From: an uncultured Bacteroidota bacterium
GTDB lineage: Bacteria; Bacteroidota; Rhodothermia; Rhodothermales; UBA10348
Direction: 5' to 3'
Length of the DNA stretch: 64,000 nucleotides
Assembly (NCBI GenBank): GCA_937876355.1
Contig: CALFHN010000041.1
Span: forward strand, 1-64,000
Under the pieces are notes generated by a model, which saw nothing but the letters and a program-made list of their open reading frames with translations, ran no database searches and was not told the origin of the DNA. This document shows, piece after piece, positions 3,351 to 41,830 of this stretch. Position 1 is the stretch's first letter. Each line of letters opens with the position of its first letter. Made by a program: the position numbers and the translations under genes.

Positions 3351-4260
3351 AATTGATAGGTCTCTACAGGTCCCGATCCATACTCAAGTGGCGAATGCTA
3401 TTCGATTCAAAATCGGAAACGGAAATTTCCGAAAGGGCGACCGACTACCCCCCACCCGAGTTCTTGCTCAGCAATTGAGCATATCGTTTCACACCGTCCG
3501 AAAGGCATATGTGGAACTTGCCCAAGATGGAATAATCTCGGCCTTACCTGGAAGCGGATATACAGTAAAAAACGCAGAGCCACTTGACAAGTCGGAACGA
3601 ATGGAGCGCGGTGCGAGCTTGTTTTCAAATGCGCTTAAACAAGCTGTTGGTCTGGGTTTGGATGAAGACGAGATTGAATATCTGTTTGGTGAACAACTTC
3701 AACAACTGGATTCGTCAGATACCTCGTCAAAAATAGTCGTTGCAGCCCCCTATAAAGAACTTGGCCAGGCGTGCGCTATCCAAATGGCAACAGCTTTCCA
3801 ACGCGAATGTCACTCTTGTTCATTGGACGAATTAGGAAAACATGGAGATGCGGACCTAATTATTGTTCCCTTCCGAAACGTGAAGCAGGTCCTCTCGATG
3901 GTAACTCGTTCGGACGTGATTGGCATAGCTTACGACCTTGATGAAAGTGCCCTGAGCCAAATTGCCAGAATGATGGACCACGAAACACTTGGTCTAGTCA
4001 CCAGGTATTCTGATGCTGTGGCATCCCTCACCAAAGAGCTTCGTGATCTGACCCGATTTGCCGGTCCTGTAGTCGCTGTATCAGTCGAAGAGGGCGACTC
4101 CTTCCTAGCGTCCTTAATTCGAGAATGTGACGTTATGGTCTATACTCAAGGAGCAGAACGGGCTGTTCGTCCGTTTCTGGATCGTGCAAAAAAACACGTC
4201 AGATTAGGGTTGAATATTGCCGAATCATCCGTCGAGCGCGTGCGTGGTGTCATTCCCTAA
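3343..4260 (+). CDS. GntR-family transcriptional regulator
   Basis: The N-terminal 75 residues form a GntR winged helix: 'PIHTQVANAIRFKIG', then 'GDRLPPTRVLAQQLSIS' and 'TVRKAYVELAQDGII' ending in 'GSGYTV', which is the classic recognition helix and wing. The remaining 230 residues do not look like the FCD, UTRA or aminotransferase effector domains. They resemble an alpha/beta ligand-binding domain ('KIVVAAPYKELGQACAIQMA'), as in the short GntR/YtrA-like regulators of Bacteroidota. It is the last gene of the pruA cluster and overlaps its upstream neighbour by 8 bp, so it probably controls that cluster. Its last 36 bp overlap the end of the convergent pgpH gene. Confidence 0.85.
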   Translation: MIEIDRSLQVPIHTQVANAIRFKIGNGNFRKGDRLPPTRVLAQQLSISFHTVRKAYVELAQDGIISALPGSGYTVKNAEPLDKSERMERGASLFSNALKQAVGLGLDEDEIEYLFGEQLQQLDSSDTSSKIVVAAPYKELGQACAIQMATAFQRECHSCSLDELGKHGDADLIIVPFRNVKQVLSMVTRSDVIGIAYDLDESALSQIARMMDHETLGLVTRYSDAVASLTKELRDLTRFAGPVVAVSVEEGDSFLASLIRECDVMVYTQGAERAVRPFLDRAKKHVRLGLNIAESSVERVRGVIP

Positions 4261-6606
4261 TTGTAACTCCTCTTTAGAAAGATCAGCCTCTTCATCTCCC
4301 GGATATTTTACTCGAACGTGATAAATCCCTAACAAAATATTGAGGAGCGACTCCTTAATCATGTTTAAGTCTGAAAACGTCAGATTTGTTGTGTCTAACT
4401 GACCGTCCTCCCTTCTTGCATCTACGATAGACTCAATGAGTGCCTGTAAGCGTCTATGATTCGGGTTGACCATAGAACGGCTTGCGGCTTCAATGGAATC
4501 AGCAAGCATGAGGACAGCTGTCTCGCGTGAGGACGGTGAAGGTCCTGGATATCTAAACTCCGACTCAAGAATAGCAGAATCCCCTTCTTTTTTCTGACTG
4601 TTTGCCCGATGATAGAAATATTCGATCCGCGTGGTGCCATGATGCATGGGAATAAAGTCTTGAACCTCCTTTGGCAGCCGATACTTTTTGGCGAGATCGA
4701 GGCCTTCCTTAACATGGTTGGCAATAATGAGCGCACTCATTCTCGGCTTCAAGCTATCATGAGGGTTGACCCCACCGCGCTGGTTTTCGACAAAATATTC
4801 GGGCTTAACCATCTTGCCGATGTCATGATACAACGCACCAACTCGGGTCAACAACGCATTGGCTCCTATGCGTGCAGCCGCCGCTTCTGCTAAGTTGGCG
4901 ACTTGAAGGACATGATTAAACGTACCAGGCGCTTTAAGACTTAGTTCTTTTAACAACGGGTGATTGGTATCTGACAATTCCAACAACGTCAAATCGGTTG
5001 TCACACCAAAAACCCTTTCAAAAATCCATAGAGCCGGATACGCCAATAAAAGCAAGACTGAATTCATCAGGATAAATATCGTTTCATTCGTTAGTCGTTC
5101 AATTGGGGTGTTTTGAAGTAAGAAATTGGCACTCAAAACCGTCATGTACCCAAGAAACACAATACTGGCACTGATGAAAAACTGGCCCCTATTCCGAATA
5201 TCACGCACGCTAAAAATGCCCAAGGTGCTAGCAAAAACAGTCGAAAATGTAAAAGCAAAATTGTAATTGAGGAAATGACTGCCCAAAAGAGCCAACGTCA
5301 ACGCGCCAAAGAAGGCGACTCTCGAATCAAATATTACGGTCAATAAAATGCCCACAATTGCAACCGGTACGACGTACATATCCAACAGCGCAGCACGAAG
5401 CGCAATTCCGTAAAGTCCAATGACGGCTAAAAACAGGAGCGATATCAACAACACCATCTTGTTATCATCGAAAACAACTCTTCGAAACAAAAAGAGGTAC
5501 AGAAAAAAGATCAGAAACGTCGAAACGGTGAGGATAAACTGACCAAGAACTGTTTTCCAAATGACTCGTCCACCCGACCTCGTCGTTAGCTCCACATCAA
5601 GAGATATTAACTTCCTCTGAACGTCGACGGTAATGATGTCCCCTTGTCGGACTATAACCTCATTTTCTCTAACTAAACCGTTGGTAGGAGATATTAAAGC
5701 TTCTTTTTCAGCCCATCGAATTTCGGATGCTTCATCTTGAAATATCAGATTAGGCACCATAACTGCTTGAAAAAACATCGAAGCTACACTGAACCTTGTG
5801 GGATTGCTGGGCCACTTACGTCCTAGCGCCGCCTGACCAATCTCAAGGGCTTCATCGATATCAAACAATTGGGTTAACAGTACCAAAGACTCAGCTGTGT
5901 CATCCCGTTTGGTGATATGGGTTGACTTTATCGCGTTACGGCTGATATTGATAACCCCGGAGCCGACTAGGCTAAGGCTTTGGAGCATTGCTGCTTCTAA
6001 CATCTCGACATCCAAACGTCTGCCTTCAGAACGTGATCTGGAAGTAGAAACAAGTCCCGGAACCGAATTGGTGTACGACTGCAATAAGTCTTCCCAAATA
6101 CCTCCAGAAAAACGAAACGACAAACTGTCTTTGGCAGAGACATAACGGATGGAATCCGTCAATGCTTCGCCTAGTCTGCCTCGAAGTAAATTGGATTGAT
6201 ATTGGCCGTACAATTCAAATACCCGATTGAGCCGAGCCTGAATCGAGTCTGCTCTGTGGGTAACAGATTGAAACGCTCGCAAATCCTCAAAGAAAATTGG
6301 TGGCGTATTTTTTCGAACTTCAGCCAATTCTTTTTCGAGATCAGCCTCATCTTTTCGAATAGCAAACTGGAACGGAGCCTGAAGGTTTTCCTGCTTCCAT
6401 ATATCCTCAACGCTAACGGTATACTGATAGAGTCGACTCCTGGGAAATACGGCCAGAGCCGCCAAAACCACTACGGAGAGTATCAATCCTTTAACAATAT
6501 TGGTCTTCGTCGTACGTTTTGACGCACTACTTCCCCCCGCTTCCAAATTATTTCCTACGGGGCGAATAGAGGGCTTTACAAAGAAAAATTTCTGCAGAAA
6601 TGACAT
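4225..6606 (-). CDS. pgpH: 7TM-HD phosphohydrolase, cyclic-di-AMP phosphodiesterase type
   Basis: The 793-residue membrane protein matches the PgpH architecture. It has one N-terminal membrane helix (about residues 38-55) and a large extracytoplasmic domain to about residue 340. A block of seven transmembrane segments (about 345-530) precedes a cytosolic HD domain with 'TFNHVLQVANLAEAAAARIG' and the HD dyad in LYHDIGK near residue 592. Characterised family members hydrolyse the second messenger c-di-AMP, linking turgor and wall homeostasis. It is the last gene of the rodZ-like/ligA/symporter run, 3 bp after the symporter stop. The 3' end overlaps the convergent GntR gene by 36 bp, so terminal transcripts would be antisense to each other. 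Confidence 0.9.
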   Translation of the reverse strand: MSFLQKFFFVKPSIRPVGNNLEAGGSSASKRTTKTNIVKGLILSVVVLAALAVFPRSRLYQYTVSVEDIWKQENLQAPFQFAIRKDEADLEKELAEVRKNTPPIFFEDLRAFQSVTHRADSIQARLNRVFELYGQYQSNLLRGRLGEALTDSIRYVSAKDSLSFRFSGGIWEDLLQSYTNSVPGLVSTSRSRSEGRRLDVEMLEAAMLQSLSLVGSGVINISRNAIKSTHITKRDDTAESLVLLTQLFDIDEALEIGQAALGRKWPSNPTRFSVASMFFQAVMVPNLIFQDEASEIRWAEKEALISPTNGLVRENEVIVRQGDIITVDVQRKLISLDVELTTRSGGRVIWKTVLGQFILTVSTFLIFFLYLFLFRRVVFDDNKMVLLISLLFLAVIGLYGIALRAALLDMYVVPVAIVGILLTVIFDSRVAFFGALTLALLGSHFLNYNFAFTFSTVFASTLGIFSVRDIRNRGQFFISASIVFLGYMTVLSANFLLQNTPIERLTNETIFILMNSVLLLLAYPALWIFERVFGVTTDLTLLELSDTNHPLLKELSLKAPGTFNHVLQVANLAEAAAARIGANALLTRVGALYHDIGKMVKPEYFVENQRGGVNPHDSLKPRMSALIIANHVKEGLDLAKKYRLPKEVQDFIPMHHGTTRIEYFYHRANSQKKEGDSAILESEFRYPGPSPSSRETAVLMLADSIEAASRSMVNPNHRRLQALIESIVDARREDGQLDTTNLTFSDLNMIKESLLNILLGIYHVRVKYPGDEEADLSKEELQLGNDTTHALDG

Positions 6607-6609
6607 GGG

Positions 6610-8130
6610 CTACCTATGCCTGACTGATAGCAAGGATCCTACAGCCATGGTAATGAGGGTTCCTAGCGTGGTATACCATGGCCAAGCGATGGGGGTTAAC
6701 TCCATGGCTGCTTTGACATCAGTCCCTGGATTGAATAAAAATATCCAATTCCCCTCGGCTGTCGTCCAGACTCCAAATATTATGGCGATCATGGTAACTA
6801 CACTACATACGAAAGCAATCATCGCATCTTTTTCGTTCACCTTAGAAACCGCCAATCCTAATAAAAAAGCGCCAAGGAGCGCCCCATAGGTAAAAGAGGC
6901 AATAGAAAGACCCAGCTCAACGACCGGATTCTGCATGTTTTCGAACAGTGTTGCAAACCCAATAAATATTCCTGCCCAGCCAAGAGTAAGCCATTTTGAT
7001 AATTTCAAGGCTTTTTCGGGACTGAGATGGGCAATTTTGCTTCCCAAAACATCTGTCATAGACGAGGAAGCCAATGCGTTAAGAGAGGAAGAAAGTGTGC
7101 TCATGGCTGCAGCCAAAATTCCTGCCAAAACAAGCCCGGCTAGACCTGTCGGAAGCTGTTCTACGATGTACTTAGGGAACACCTCGTCCAGACGCGTTAG
7201 TCCCAAACTCGCGGCTTCCGCTCCTCCGTAAAACGACCACAACAATCCGCCAACCAATAAAAAAATGGCGAATTGCCCCATGACAAAAAATGCGCTGCCA
7301 ATCAGGGCTTTTCGGGCATCTTGAAGAGATTTACAGGATAACAGTCGCTGAACAATTAGCTGATCTGTTCCGTGGGAAGCCATGGAAAATATACCGCCCC
7401 CCACAACTGCAGTGATTAAGACATATGGCCGGGTTAAAATGGCGTGCAGCGAAAAATCAGAGTAAAATACACGTGTTTTACCCGCAGCGATGAGTTCAGA
7501 AATGGCACCGTCTGGCAAGTTAAAAAGCAGCAACCCAATGGTTGCAAACGCCCCCAATACATAAAGAGACATTTGCACCACATCCATCCAAACCACTGCT
7601 TTAAATCCGCCTACAAAAGTGTAAATCGCGGTCAAAACGCCAATTCCAAGAATGATTACAGGATATCCAATATCAAAGCCTGCACTTGTGGCGATAATTT
7701 TGATCGGGATCGCCGTGGCAAATAATCGAACCCCATCTGCCAAAAGCCTGGTAGCCAGAAAGGTGACAGATGAAAGGCGCTGCATATTGCTTCCAAATCG
7801 CTCACCTAGGTAGGAATAGGCGGTTTGCATTTCTCCCCGCATATACCTTGGCAGAAATATGATAGAAACCAGTATCCTGCCCGCCAAATACCCGAAAGTC
7901 AATTGAAAAAAGGTCATGTTTCCGCCGTAAACAACGGCTGGAATTCCAATCACGGTCAGCGTACTGGTCTCCGTAGCCACAATCGAAAAACATATTGCCC
8001 ACCACGGTAACTCCTTGGAGCCCAAGAAATAATCTTTTGTTGATTGCTGCTTTCCAGCGGACTTAATACCAAATATGACAACGCCGATTAAGTAGGCGAC
8101 GATTACCAGGTAATCAATTGGATGAAGCAT
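6610..8130 (-). CDS. Sodium:solute symporter (SSS family)
   Basis: The 506-residue integral membrane protein has the 13-helix pattern and signatures of the sodium/solute symporter family. These include an N-terminal 'DYLVIVAYLIGVVIFGI', the motif 'KDYFLGSKELPWWAI' after helix 1 and the later conserved stretch 'GILAAAMSTLSSSLNALASSS'. Such proteins import sugars, amino acids, nucleosides or organic acids with Na+. The substrate cannot be assigned from sequence; the overall look is closest to the SGLT/sialic-acid-like branch. It begins 4 bp after the ligA stop and ends 3 bp before pgpH, so it is co-transcribed with both. A sodium-driven carrier next to a c-di-AMP phosphodiesterase would suit osmotic control, but that is inference. 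Confidence 0.88.
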   Translation of the reverse strand: MLHPIDYLVIVAYLIGVVIFGIKSAGKQQSTKDYFLGSKELPWWAICFSIVATETSTLTVIGIPAVVYGGNMTFFQLTFGYLAGRILVSIIFLPRYMRGEMQTAYSYLGERFGSNMQRLSSVTFLATRLLADGVRLFATAIPIKIIATSAGFDIGYPVIILGIGVLTAIYTFVGGFKAVVWMDVVQMSLYVLGAFATIGLLLFNLPDGAISELIAAGKTRVFYSDFSLHAILTRPYVLITAVVGGGIFSMASHGTDQLIVQRLLSCKSLQDARKALIGSAFFVMGQFAIFLLVGGLLWSFYGGAEAASLGLTRLDEVFPKYIVEQLPTGLAGLVLAGILAAAMSTLSSSLNALASSSMTDVLGSKIAHLSPEKALKLSKWLTLGWAGIFIGFATLFENMQNPVVELGLSIASFTYGALLGAFLLGLAVSKVNEKDAMIAFVCSVVTMIAIIFGVWTTAEGNWIFLFNPGTDVKAAMELTPIAWPWYTTLGTLITMAVGSLLSVRHR

Positions 8131-33886: not shown

Positions 33887-33926
33887 TTTGATCAAAGTTT
33901 GACATGTCGGTGCCACTCTGTATAGG
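33887..33926 (+). promoter_or_regulatory. Palindrome and candidate sigma-70-like promoter in the nagB / nifJ-chimera divergent region
   Basis: TTTGATCAAA (33887-33896) is a perfect 10-bp palindrome flanked by two direct TTTGACA copies (33874 and 33898). The second copy gives TTGACA followed after 16 bp by TATAGG at 33921, a reasonable -35/-10 pair reading towards the chimera gene at 34058. It may be a shared control site of the divergent genes. Promoter consensus in this lineage can differ, so this is a candidate only. Confidence 0.35.
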
Positions 33927-34057
33927 CATTCGTCCTACAATCAAAGGTGTGTCTAGACTGACAACGAACATAGCGTCCCACCCCCACTATCTCGCCTAGA
34001 AATTCAATTTCTTGTAGTTAGAGAACCGGTCTACTTGCATAAAACTGAGAGAAGTAG

Positions 34058-34699
34058 ATGAAAGGGCGATTATCAACTATGGATGGCAATCAGGCTGCGG
34101 CGCACGTTGCTTACCGTACCAGCGAAGTCATTGCCATTTATCCAATTACCCCCGCCTCTGCGATGGGAGAATTATCAGATTTGTGGAGGGCTCAAAACAA
34201 GCCCAATATTTGGGGAACTGTGCCCCGGGTCATCGAAATGCAGTCGGAAGGCGGGGCCTCGGTAATTGTTCTTTTCAATCGGTTTTATCAACCAGATATT
34301 GATATTCAATCGCTCGAAGTTCAACCCAAACTAAATCTTTCGACATCACATGCCTTACGGTTACCTCTTCGATGGATAGCCATGTTGTATGGCCGAGTTC
34401 CTGCTGATTTGGCACTCACTAGTGGAGTACACACGTATCAAGATGCACTAATAGGGTTGATGGCTGGCTCATCGGTCGTAATGATGGCGTCAGAACTGCT
34501 CAAAAATGGGTTAGGGCGCATTCAGGAAATAAACGAACACATGAAAGAGTGGATGGACGAGAATGAGTATGAATCCGTTGAACAGCTTCAAGGAAGTATG
34601 AGCCAAATTCATGTCGCAAATCCGACTGCTTTCGAACGCGCCAACTACATGCACGTTTTAAGATCATGGCGCGAAGATCCTAACGGCGTCGCTCTATAG
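34058..34699 (+). pseudogene. Chimeric remnant: NifJ (pyruvate:ferredoxin oxidoreductase) N-terminus joined to dihydroorotate-dehydrogenase-like C-terminus
   Basis: Residues 1-67 match the start of pyruvate:ferredoxin/flavodoxin oxidoreductase: [17 protein letters not shown], '[17 protein letters not shown]', '[10 protein letters not shown]'. From about residue 69 the protein is the end of a dihydroorotate dehydrogenase-like protein: '[12 protein letters not shown]', '[21 protein letters not shown]', '[17 protein letters not shown]', '[13 protein letters not shown]', 'FERANYM'. Full NifJ is about 1,180 residues and the second protein about 330, and in many genomes they are adjacent. An in-frame deletion of roughly 4 kb joining them explains the structure. 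The 213-residue product lacks the thiamine, Fe-S and most FMN-site parts, so neither enzyme can work. An assembly artefact must be ruled out. Confidence 0.85.
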
Positions 34700-34815
34700 C
34701 AAAATTGCTCCTTCGCAACTTTGAATAGCCCGGTTGCAAGTGTACTTTTGGGAAACTAGCCGTAGGCTGGTTTCCCAAATTTGCATTGTCAAACGTCCAA
34801 TTCCCATTGATTATT

Positions 34816-36534
34816 ATGCCTCGATTCGTTCGCCATTTTAGCGTATTTGTTCTTTTCATTGCGCTTGTTTCTCTTCCATCGTGCACTCCACAAGACCTCC
34901 CCACCGGGTCTGTTCGCGGCGGAATCGTCTCGACTGCGCAACACGTTGCCTCTGATGTTGGCCGAGATATATTGCAACAGGGCGGAAATGCGGTAGACGC
35001 CGCAATTGCCACTGCATTTGCTTTAGCGGTTGTGCATCCGGCAGCTGGAAATATTGGTGGTGGAGGTTTTCTTGTCTACCACGGTGCTGATGGCAAGGTT
35101 ACCACCTTCAACTTTCGCGAGAAAGCTCCTGCGGCTGCAGGTCCGGCCATGTTTTTAACGGATGGGGAGATTGATGAGGTAAAACACCATCGGGCGCTCA
35201 CCTCTACTGGCGTCCCTGGAACCGTGGCTGGATTGGCCTTGGCGCACAAGAGATTAGGATCTCTTCCATGGGCAGATTTGCTTGAGCCTGCCATTCGGCT
35301 TGCGGAAGAAGGATTCCCCTTCACTGAAAATTTAATGGATTTCCAGGAGCGCATTTTAGATTCGGCGTCGTCCAATCCTATTTATGCCTCAACAGTACGT
35401 GCATTTTTGAAAAATGGCACTGAGGCTCATGCTACGGGCGAATTGTTGATCCAAAAAGATTTGGCAGAATCCCTCAAGCGTATTCGCAACAATGGGGCAG
35501 ATGGTTTTTACAAAGGTGAAACGGCCCGCTTGATGGCTGAATTTATGGCGGCAAACGGCGGCCTTATCACCGAACAAGATATGGCCGATTACCAAGCTGA
35601 AGAACTCCCAGCAATCCACGGCACCTACCGAGGTTACGACATCTATTCAATGCCCCCTCCTTCCTCCGGTGGTATAGCCATCGTTACTATGCTAAACATA
35701 TTGGAAGAATATGACATGGGGGCAATAGAGCATAATTCCGCACCCTACTTGCACCTGCTTACCGAGGCAATGCGCCGAGGGTTTGCTGACCGCGCTCAAT
35801 TTATTGGGGATCCCAATTTTAATCCAGATATGCCTGTAGACTGGCTTACTTCCAAGAAACACGCGGTCGACCTTGCATCTTCGATCAACCCAGATGCGGC
35901 TTCCCCTAGCGATTCAAGCACATTTAATGGCTTTATGCCGTATGAAAGCGAAGAAACGACTCACTTTTCTGTAGCGGATGAAGCCGGGAATACGGTCTCG
36001 ATGACCTACACACTTGAAAACAGCTATGGCAATTCAATTGTTGTGGAGGGTGCAGGCTTTTTACTTAATAATGAAATGGGTGACTTCAATCCAAAACCCG
36101 GCCATACAGACCGCAGTGGCAACATTGGTACACTTCCGAATCTGACGGCGCCAGGAAAACGAATGCTTTCTTCAATGACTCCAGTGATTGTCGGCCAAAA
36201 CGGCCGTCCAGTGATGGCCATTGGAAGCCCAGGAGGCCGAACCATTATCAATACGTCGCTTCAGGTTGTTCTAAATGTTTTAGACCACGGAATGAGCATA
36301 GGAGATGCCATCGAAGCAGGGCGTATTCATCACCAATGGTTGCCTGATCGGACTTCATACGAATCTACTCGTTTCACAGCTGAAACGATGAGCGCTTACG
36401 AACACCTCGGGCATACCATTTCTTCCAGAAATGGGCAAGGAAGTGCAATGGGAATTTGGATCGATTGGAAGGCGGGGGTTAAATATGGCGCCTCAGACTC
36501 CAGAAGCTCCGAAGGAAGTGCATCTGGGTATTAG
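34816..36534 (+). CDS. ggt: Gamma-glutamyltransferase (lipoprotein or periplasmic)
   Basis: GGT hydrolyses or transfers the gamma-glutamyl group of glutathione and related compounds. The 572-residue product has a signal with a lipobox-like cysteine (FIALVSLPSC), then 'QGGNAVDAAIATAFALAVVHPAAGNIGGGGF'. It ends with the autocatalytic threonine in 'ESEETTHFSVADEAGNTVSMT' (near residue 380) and 'SSMTPVIV' and 'IGSPGGRTIINTSLQVVLNVLDHGMSIGDAI' in the small subunit. Length and motifs are complete, so it should mature into two chains. The start at 34816 (MPRFVRHF) is preferred to 34786. A small membrane gene follows 107 bp later. Confidence 0.93.
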   Translation: MPRFVRHFSVFVLFIALVSLPSCTPQDLPTGSVRGGIVSTAQHVASDVGRDILQQGGNAVDAAIATAFALAVVHPAAGNIGGGGFLVYHGADGKVTTFNFREKAPAAAGPAMFLTDGEIDEVKHHRALTSTGVPGTVAGLALAHKRLGSLPWADLLEPAIRLAEEGFPFTENLMDFQERILDSASSNPIYASTVRAFLKNGTEAHATGELLIQKDLAESLKRIRNNGADGFYKGETARLMAEFMAANGGLITEQDMADYQAEELPAIHGTYRGYDIYSMPPPSSGGIAIVTMLNILEEYDMGAIEHNSAPYLHLLTEAMRRGFADRAQFIGDPNFNPDMPVDWLTSKKHAVDLASSINPDAASPSDSSTFNGFMPYESEETTHFSVADEAGNTVSMTYTLENSYGNSIVVEGAGFLLNNEMGDFNPKPGHTDRSGNIGTLPNLTAPGKRMLSSMTPVIVGQNGRPVMAIGSPGGRTIINTSLQVVLNVLDHGMSIGDAIEAGRIHHQWLPDRTSYESTRFTAETMSAYEHLGHTISSRNGQGSAMGIWIDWKAGVKYGASDSRSSEGSASGY

Positions 36535-40298: not shown

Positions 40299-41480
40299 TT
40301 ACTGAGAATCCAAGATTTGGCCTCGTAGGATGACGGAATGCACCGCGCCCAAGTTTCGCATATCCGCGAGCGGATTTTTGTCCAAAAGCACCATGTCAGC
40401 CGCTTTTCCAACCTTAATACTTCCCCGCTCTCCAGCTAACCCCGAAAAACTTGCAGCCCCAGAAGTTGTCATTTTGAGAACGTCCATCGGAGGAATTCCA
40501 GCCCGTACAAATGAAATCATTTCGCCATGCAGGCCGGTTCCTGGTTTCTGTGGCCATTCTCAATATGCAAAATTGGCACCCAACAACAAGGACACGCCGG
40601 CGTCAAAAAAGCGTTTAAAAATCACATATGCGTGTTGAATGCGAGCATCCTTTGAAGGATCATCGCCACGCACCTCGATCGGAGCGATCATACTATACAT
40701 CGCGGGAGAAACCCAAGTACCATTTTTTAGGAAAACCTCGATTACTTCCTGGATTTCAGCATCCGAAAGCCTCAAATACGGACTCATATGTTCGATGCTT
40801 CGAAGTCCAAGATCAGAAGCCGAAACAGCACTAAGTCCTTGTGGGACATGCCCTACAACCGTCATGTCTAATTTTTTTCCTTCATCTACAAGCGCTGCAA
40901 CCAACCCAGCACTAATCAGTGGTTGAATTTTGATAAAGTCCACGCCTCGTTTTTTTAACGTATGAACTGCGGCACGCGCTTCATCTTCAGAACTCACTTT
41001 TAATCGATACTCATCCTCAGCCTCAAGCCCTTCAACGTAAGGGCCACACCATATCATAGATGGTCCGAGTAGTATTCCATCGTCAATTCCTTGCTTCCAC
41101 TCTTCAATTTCATTTGGGTCTCCCCCCAACTCTCGAATGCTGGTCACCCCTGCGTTGACCAACATGCCCAGCGCATCTTCTCCCCAATACGAGAGGTGGG
41201 CGTGCATGTCCCACAAGCCGGGAATAAGAAATTTTCCAGTGCCATCTATAACGAGGGCGTCTTCGGGAATCTGTGGAATTTGACCATGTGTGACGGAGAT
41301 GATCTTTCCCTCTTGAAAGATAACAGCGGCATTTTCAAAGGTTCGATCTGATTCACCATCAATTAGCGTAACAGAGTGTATCACAACACGTTGCGCCTGC
41401 CATGCTGCCACAGGACTAGACCATAGCAAGAGCCCAATTAGGAAAATTAGTGGACGAAAAAGGGAGCATTTGGATTTCAT
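40299..41480 (-). pseudogene. Amidohydrolase-family protein disrupted by an in-frame TGA
   Basis: The first part (about 306 residues) has a signal peptide, 'LIDGESDRTFENAAVIFQEGKI', the metal motif 'GLWDMHAHLS', a K in 'DFIKIQP', and 'VVGHVPQGLSA' with 'LRSIEHM'. It ends at TGA (40560-40562). Reading on in the same frame gives 'EWPQKPGTGLHGEMISF', then 'PMDVLKMTTSGAASFSG' and 'GSIKVGKAADMVLLDKNPL', which is the normal end of the family. So one gene is split by one stop. In addition the metal-binding aspartate expected in GTD reads as asparagine (LLLGANFAY). Two lesions make active protein unlikely. It faces away from the DUF5916 gene. Confidence 0.8.
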
Positions 41481-41830
41481 TTGCACTATCGAACTGTTGC
41501 ACTCGCACCATTCGGCGTTTCTTGAATTGGTCATTTTAAGAAGAGAACTCTACAGGTCAATATCGCTACCAAACGTTTATGAAAAACGCTGCTAGCCATC
41601 TTATTTATTTGGGTTTGATGATGATGGTCTTCACGGGCTGCGATTGAGGTTAAACTAAGCTCGACCTAGCTCAGACACCAGTTCTAGGCACGCATCGATT
41701 CAAATGAAAAGCACCCGGGAATTCACGTTCGGGCCCTGCGTGATTTCACGTCAACTTTCATTGCACCTATTACATGTCTTGTTGCTAAATTGAAGCCTTC
41801 ACCCAGAAAACTAAAACGCCCAAGTCGCTC
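41481..41830. other. 350-bp divergent intergenic region with a 22-codon lipopeptide ORF
   Basis: Apart from the tiny ORF at 41579-41647 described separately, no gene is seen between the amidohydrolase pseudogene and the DUF5916 gene. The right part should hold the promoter of the DUF5916 gene, but I cannot point to clear boxes. Confidence 0.5.
41579..41647 (+). CDS. 22-residue lipopeptide ORF or truncated lipoprotein
   Basis: ATG at 41579 opens an ORF encoding MKNAASHLIYLGLMMMVFTGCD and then TGA. It is a complete lipoprotein signal peptide with a good lipobox (VFTGC) and only one residue after the cysteine. It is too short for the ORF track. It may be a stub left after a nonsense mutation or deletion, or a deliberate entericidin-like lipopeptide. 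The following sequence reads on without an obvious domain. Confidence 0.35.
   Translation: MKNAASHLIYLGLMMMVFTGCD

Follow-up and report, generated by a model that had tools for sequence, protein, structure and literature searches.

Organization of the locus

The window analyzed is a stretch of 64,000 nucleotides from an uncultured Bacteroidota bacterium of the order Rhodothermales, and the genome that carries it (G000 below) is represented by an assembly of 2.9 Mb in 181 contigs, 92% complete. Positions 34058..34699 (+) of the window harbor an open reading frame that encodes a protein of 213 amino acids, made of a NifJ N-terminus and a DHOD-like C-terminus joined in frame. Its left neighbor, transcribed divergently, encodes a nagB-like deaminase/PIG-L protein (PRK02122; 31885..33882, −), and its right neighbor is the gamma-glutamyltranspeptidase gene ggt (34816..36534, +), whose likely start is the ATG at 34816. 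Both neighbors are syntenic in the genus. Gene order in the relatives is nagB-like (divergent), nifJ, DHOD-like and ggt; hence, the chimera has the neighbors of the pair, and its position is exactly that of nifJ–DHOD-like. The pair is intact, adjacent, in the same order and on one contig in G001, G013, G007 and G012. The original prediction had regarded the two genes as neighbors in other genomes and had proposed that relatives be searched for intact pairs; the synteny found agrees with it, and such pairs exist.

The intergenic region between the chimera and ggt contains TACTTTTG (34743..34750, +), which matches the Bacteroidota −7 element, TAnnTTTG, and may be part of the ggt promoter. In the alignment, the element is kept in G000, G001, G003 (as TACTTTTA) and G004. 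A terminator-like 15-bp hairpin followed by TTTGCATTGT (34747..34779, +) overlaps the element, and is not evident in the aligned relatives. Further downstream, an amidohydrolase gene (~40300-41534, −) has one in-frame stop near 40560 (LLLGANFAY*EWPQKPGTGLHGEM); it is likely a second pseudogene, 6 kb from the chimera.

Anatomy of the chimeric reading frame

Profile searches matched positions 1-67 of NifJ (TIGR02176), the pyruvate:ferredoxin (flavodoxin) oxidoreductase, to residues 5-71 of the chimera (E 1.3e-26) and positions 180-330 of the DHOD-like family PRK07565 to residues 55-205 (E 1.9e-53), while Pfam detected POR_N (1-53/231) and DHO_dh (187-291/291). The NifJ part (residues 1-67; 34058..34258, +), which covers POR_N positions 1-53, is 80% identical to amino acids 1-69 of NifJ from G001. 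The DHOD-like part comprises about 146 C-terminal residues and runs to the native stop (34256..34696, +), with 75% identity to amino acids 185-335 of the G001 protein. The composition originally predicted, 67 residues of NifJ followed by the end of a DHOD-like protein, is thus borne out by these matches. So is an in-frame join near 34255: it was mapped to 34253..34261 (+), and the frame is open through its 213 codons, with no internal stop.

When the chimera was aligned with the separate NifJ and DHOD-like fragments of relatives, both halves met at a single point (NifJ ...EMQ.EGGA / DHOD ...AGASGIVLF). The nucleotides at the join are GAA GGC GGG GCC TCG GTA ATT, in which GGGGCC (up to 7 nt) is possibly common to both parents, and the breakpoint is ambiguous within it. 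At this point, the relatives have EGGA-AG in NifJ and (K/R)AGA-SGIVLF in DHOD. Because the conserved EGGA of NifJ is followed by Ala and the AGA of DHOD by Ser, the parents can have shared at most about 7 identical nucleotides. The 'GGA/AGA' motif described earlier is therefore real in both proteins of the relatives but short at the nucleotide level. Directly after the conserved Ser, the chimera has a Val codon (GTA) where 21 of 21 DHOD-like relatives have Gly or Ala.

Neither parental activity is expected to survive in such a product. The chimera scores 92.8 bits against TIGR02176 over positions 1-67 of 1167, short of the curated cut-off of 911 bits, and 181.7 bits against NF005741 (PRK07565) over positions 180-330 of 335, short of the cut-off of 303 bits. 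With NifJ it shares the motifs YPITPAS and EMQ.EGGA, which in our alignment match Thr31 and Glu64 of the enzyme from Desulfovibrio africanus. In contrast, it lacks about 95% of NifJ, including the rest of domain I, the Arg114 region, every Fe-S cluster cysteine and the C-terminal domain that binds the TPP pyrophosphate. With the DHOD-like protein encoded next to nifJ in relatives it shares the C-terminal ~146 residues but not the N-terminal half of the barrel; amino acids 1-184 are absent, and the FMN-binding barrel is incomplete. Since nearly all of NifJ is missing and less than half of the DHOD-like barrel is left, the 213-residue protein would catalyze neither reaction, as originally proposed.

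A probable deletion of about 4.1 kb

The two pieces retained in the chimera are about 4.1-4.2 kb apart in the intact loci of G001 and G013, and ~4.1 kb is missing from G000. Synteny and the sequences of relatives thus support the idea, raised in the original prediction, that a single deletion of about 4 kb fused nifJ to the adjacent DHOD-like gene. The event would have joined short G+C-rich matching stretches of 7 nt or less, removing NifJ from about codon 68 onward together with some 185-190 codons from the start of the DHOD-like gene, and the reading frame may have been kept by chance, with a likelihood of one in three. Short-homology deletions between neighboring genes are known to leave deletion-fusion pseudogenes. 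The locus resembles them in that two adjacent genes are truncated at their facing ends, the flanks are undisturbed, the catalytic parts are missing and relatives have intact adjacent orthologues; it is unusual only in its open frame and nearly undecayed remnant. No fusion of the chimera type was found among 60 related genomes searched, and the exact 213-residue gene is not a conserved protein of these relatives. The possibility that the fusion is a conserved bifunctional gene was accordingly rejected.

An alternative is that the organism, or some of its strains, carries intact nifJ and DHOD-like genes whose ends were joined by a chimeric molecule, a chimeric read or a local misassembly. The assembly is indeed fragmented, as its contig number and completeness indicate, the remnant is almost as undecayed as an intact locus would be, and in G003 nifJ is split between contigs with ~11 nt missing, so the gene can assemble badly in this group. 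However, collapse of a repeat is unlikely because the ≤ ~7 nt that the parents share at the join is far below assembler k-mers; around 7 nt is a length often met at real short-homology deletions. Searches of the G000 assembly with full-length NifJ and DHOD-like queries returned only the two pieces and a distant KorB-type paralogue, and the bin contains no other fragment of either gene. Furthermore, a codon that specifies Gly or Ala throughout the 21 relatives is altered right at the join, and sister species show independent losses, as described below. An artefact is hence an unlikely explanation, and the shortness of the shared sequence, together with the losses in sister species, tells against assembly collapse, put forward earlier as the main alternative, yet it stays a live rival. 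A scan of the GTDB species collection, from which records near the window were possibly left out, detected no second assembly of the species.

A second nifJ elsewhere in the G000 assembly was considered as well and rejected, as the search of the rest of the genome, suggested in the original prediction, gave KorA/KorB-type matches only. Genes for a KorA/KorB-type 2-oxoacid:ferredoxin oxidoreductase lie on contig C139 and a pdhA-pdhB-E2 operon on contig C142, all named from sequence and family matches. Because these genes are kept, the oxidation of pyruvate does not have to rely on NifJ, and acetyl-CoA production could pass through the retained pyruvate dehydrogenase. The predicted loss of a pyruvate:ferredoxin route therefore holds for the assembly, which is 92% complete, with the KorAB-type genes and the operon remaining.

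Decay and age of the remnant

Synonymous sites are saturated between species, and a codon-model test of branch dN/dS has no power. Decay was thus measured by counting changes at family-invariant sites and by neutral simulation. G000 has changed at 3 of 91 such sites, 2 of 53 in the DHOD part and 1 of 38 in the NifJ part. In the simulation, so few changes were obtained only if drift occupied about 2% or less of the G000 branch, roughly 0.04 substitutions per site, the length of that branch being a rough, near-saturated estimate. The near-absence of decay means that the deletion is young, that the product is selected or that the join is artefactual. Of these, we favor youth because what has been preserved are sites of the parent enzymes, although the machinery for catalysis has disappeared. 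Recency of the deletion is thus our reading of the counts and the simulation.

Selection would imply that the fused frame has been retained as a new small protein and that the former nifJ promoter region drives its transcription. The open frame with native start and stop, the palindrome kept upstream with one mismatch (see below) and the few changes at invariant sites would all be compatible with such a protein. On the other hand, constraint tracks sites that have lost their catalytic purpose, which suggests recency rather than a new function, and the protein is common to none of the 60 relatives. AlphaFold2 gave no confident fold for the chimera (mean pLDDT 42, pTM 0.28); the intact DHOD-like protein, modelled as a control with an equally shallow alignment, also reached modest values (pLDDT 54.5, pTM 0.60), and shallow alignments make this weak evidence. 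We thus consider a selected small protein very unlikely, and an even slimmer chance is given to a stable, selected, non-catalytic half-barrel with a NifJ N-terminus placed under low-oxygen control by that same promoter region. Between the two fates foreseen in the original prediction, a decaying gene is favored, and recency and the 0/60 count speak against a new small protein. From what its sequence retains, the chimera itself is probably functionless. Altogether, a single recent deletion of ~4.1 kb that left a young, non-functional remnant is, with good probability, the right explanation.

Probable independent losses among relatives

The genus set consists of six genomes, G000 among them. G001 has both genes intact, G003 keeps both with nifJ split across two contigs as mentioned above, and in G005 the contig ends inside nifJ. 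In G004, amino acids 1-430 of NifJ are joined out of frame to amino acids 263-336 of DHOD, so the deletion differs from that of G000; in addition, the DHOD remnant carries TAG in place of a Trp codon and appears to have lost 18 nt locally. G002 has no remnant at all, and its deletion begins shortly before the nifJ palindrome and stops just short of the ggt promoter element. The contig of G003 breaks at the NifJ motif VFWGLGS, where the deletion join of G004 also lies; this may be a coincidence or may reflect a site that is fragile or hard to assemble. Lesions are seen in other relatives too. The two-contig genome G017 carries a frameshift near amino acid 783 of NifJ and a nonsense codon in DHOD, and some of these lesions may stem from sequencing error. 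In G025, NifJ is truncated around residue 42-44, near the end of a contig.

In a tree built from four concatenated flanking genes, G002 and G003 are sisters (bootstrap 99), and G000 branches next. As both genes survive in G003, it appears that G000, G002 and G004 lost the pair separately. Judging from these sequences, the pattern is best read as loss of the pair in at least three independent events among the six genomes of the genus. An older deletion shared by G000 and G002, with later disappearance of the remnant from G002, might be considered since G002 lacks the whole pair and falls close to G000 in single-gene trees of nag and greA. Against this, the concatenated flanks join G002 to a genome with both genes, and an old event would have left far more decay than is seen; this scenario can be given next to no credence. 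Hence, separate and recent loss is the reading adopted for G000. Our search of the literature on loss of nifJ or its DHOD-like neighbor in this group yielded nothing direct.

The loss in G000 is probably part of a repeated dismantling, within the genus, of an apparent low-oxygen module of pyruvate oxidation. The chimera would be the loss of an oxygen-sensitive pyruvate route caught very soon after the event, ordinary in kind and instructive as one among several losses in parallel. A genus with at least three separate losses by different lesions offers a usable test case to learn which parts of a low-oxygen program go first.

Upstream palindrome and a candidate regulon

The DNA upstream of the chimera is continuous, and contains a palindrome, TATAGG-N7-CCTACA (33921..33939), that begins 137 nt ahead of the NifJ start and may be an operator. 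With the upstream DNA continuous and the palindrome kept with one mismatch to the consensus, TGTAGG-N7-CCTACA, the earlier claim that the promoter region is intact is mostly right. Copies with one mismatch at most to the consensus lie 130-215 nt before the NifJ start in G000, G001, G003, G004, G005, G007, G013 and G025. Only one of 3000 shuffled upstream regions matched equally well. Some nifJ-bearing genomes, such as G012, lack a palindrome copy nearby.

Exact copies elsewhere in the order are found near genes for a nitroreductase and for a PAS histidine kinase accompanied by a FixJ/NarL-like response regulator of the LuxR type (G001, G027), near cbb3-type oxidase genes (G027), near universal stress proteins and a cation ATPase (G034), and near a di-haem cytochrome c peroxidase (G010); others sit beside apparently unrelated genes. 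A reversed control pattern was about as frequent genome-wide, so that single exact matches mean little alone. The UvrY box is bound by a regulator presumably of the same general class as the FixJ/NarL-like one. The sequence of this box, TGTAAG-N6-CTTACA (PMC4682653), resembles TGTAGG-N7-CCTACA. Literature on the latter palindrome gave nothing direct. From these comparisons, it is plausible that TGTAGG-N7-CCTACA is a candidate operator of a low-oxygen regulon that included nifJ.

The FixJ/NarL-like regulator of G001, located on C205, is 89-93% identical in four other genomes of the genus, including G000, where the enzyme would thus have been lost before its putative regulator. The regulator is present in the five congeners of G002 but missing from G002 itself, and the palindrome and nifJ are also gone there, which suggests that the low-oxygen module is being lost in G002 too. 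The former regulator locus of G002 (L207, G002:C44) contains, at 3922-4275 and 6753-7870, a nitroreductase remnant and transposase-like ORFs, of IS3 type by eye. In G004, the nitroreductase gene adjoining the regulator (L209, G004:C254, 3873-4874) is split by an internal stop into frames of 243 and 81 amino acids.
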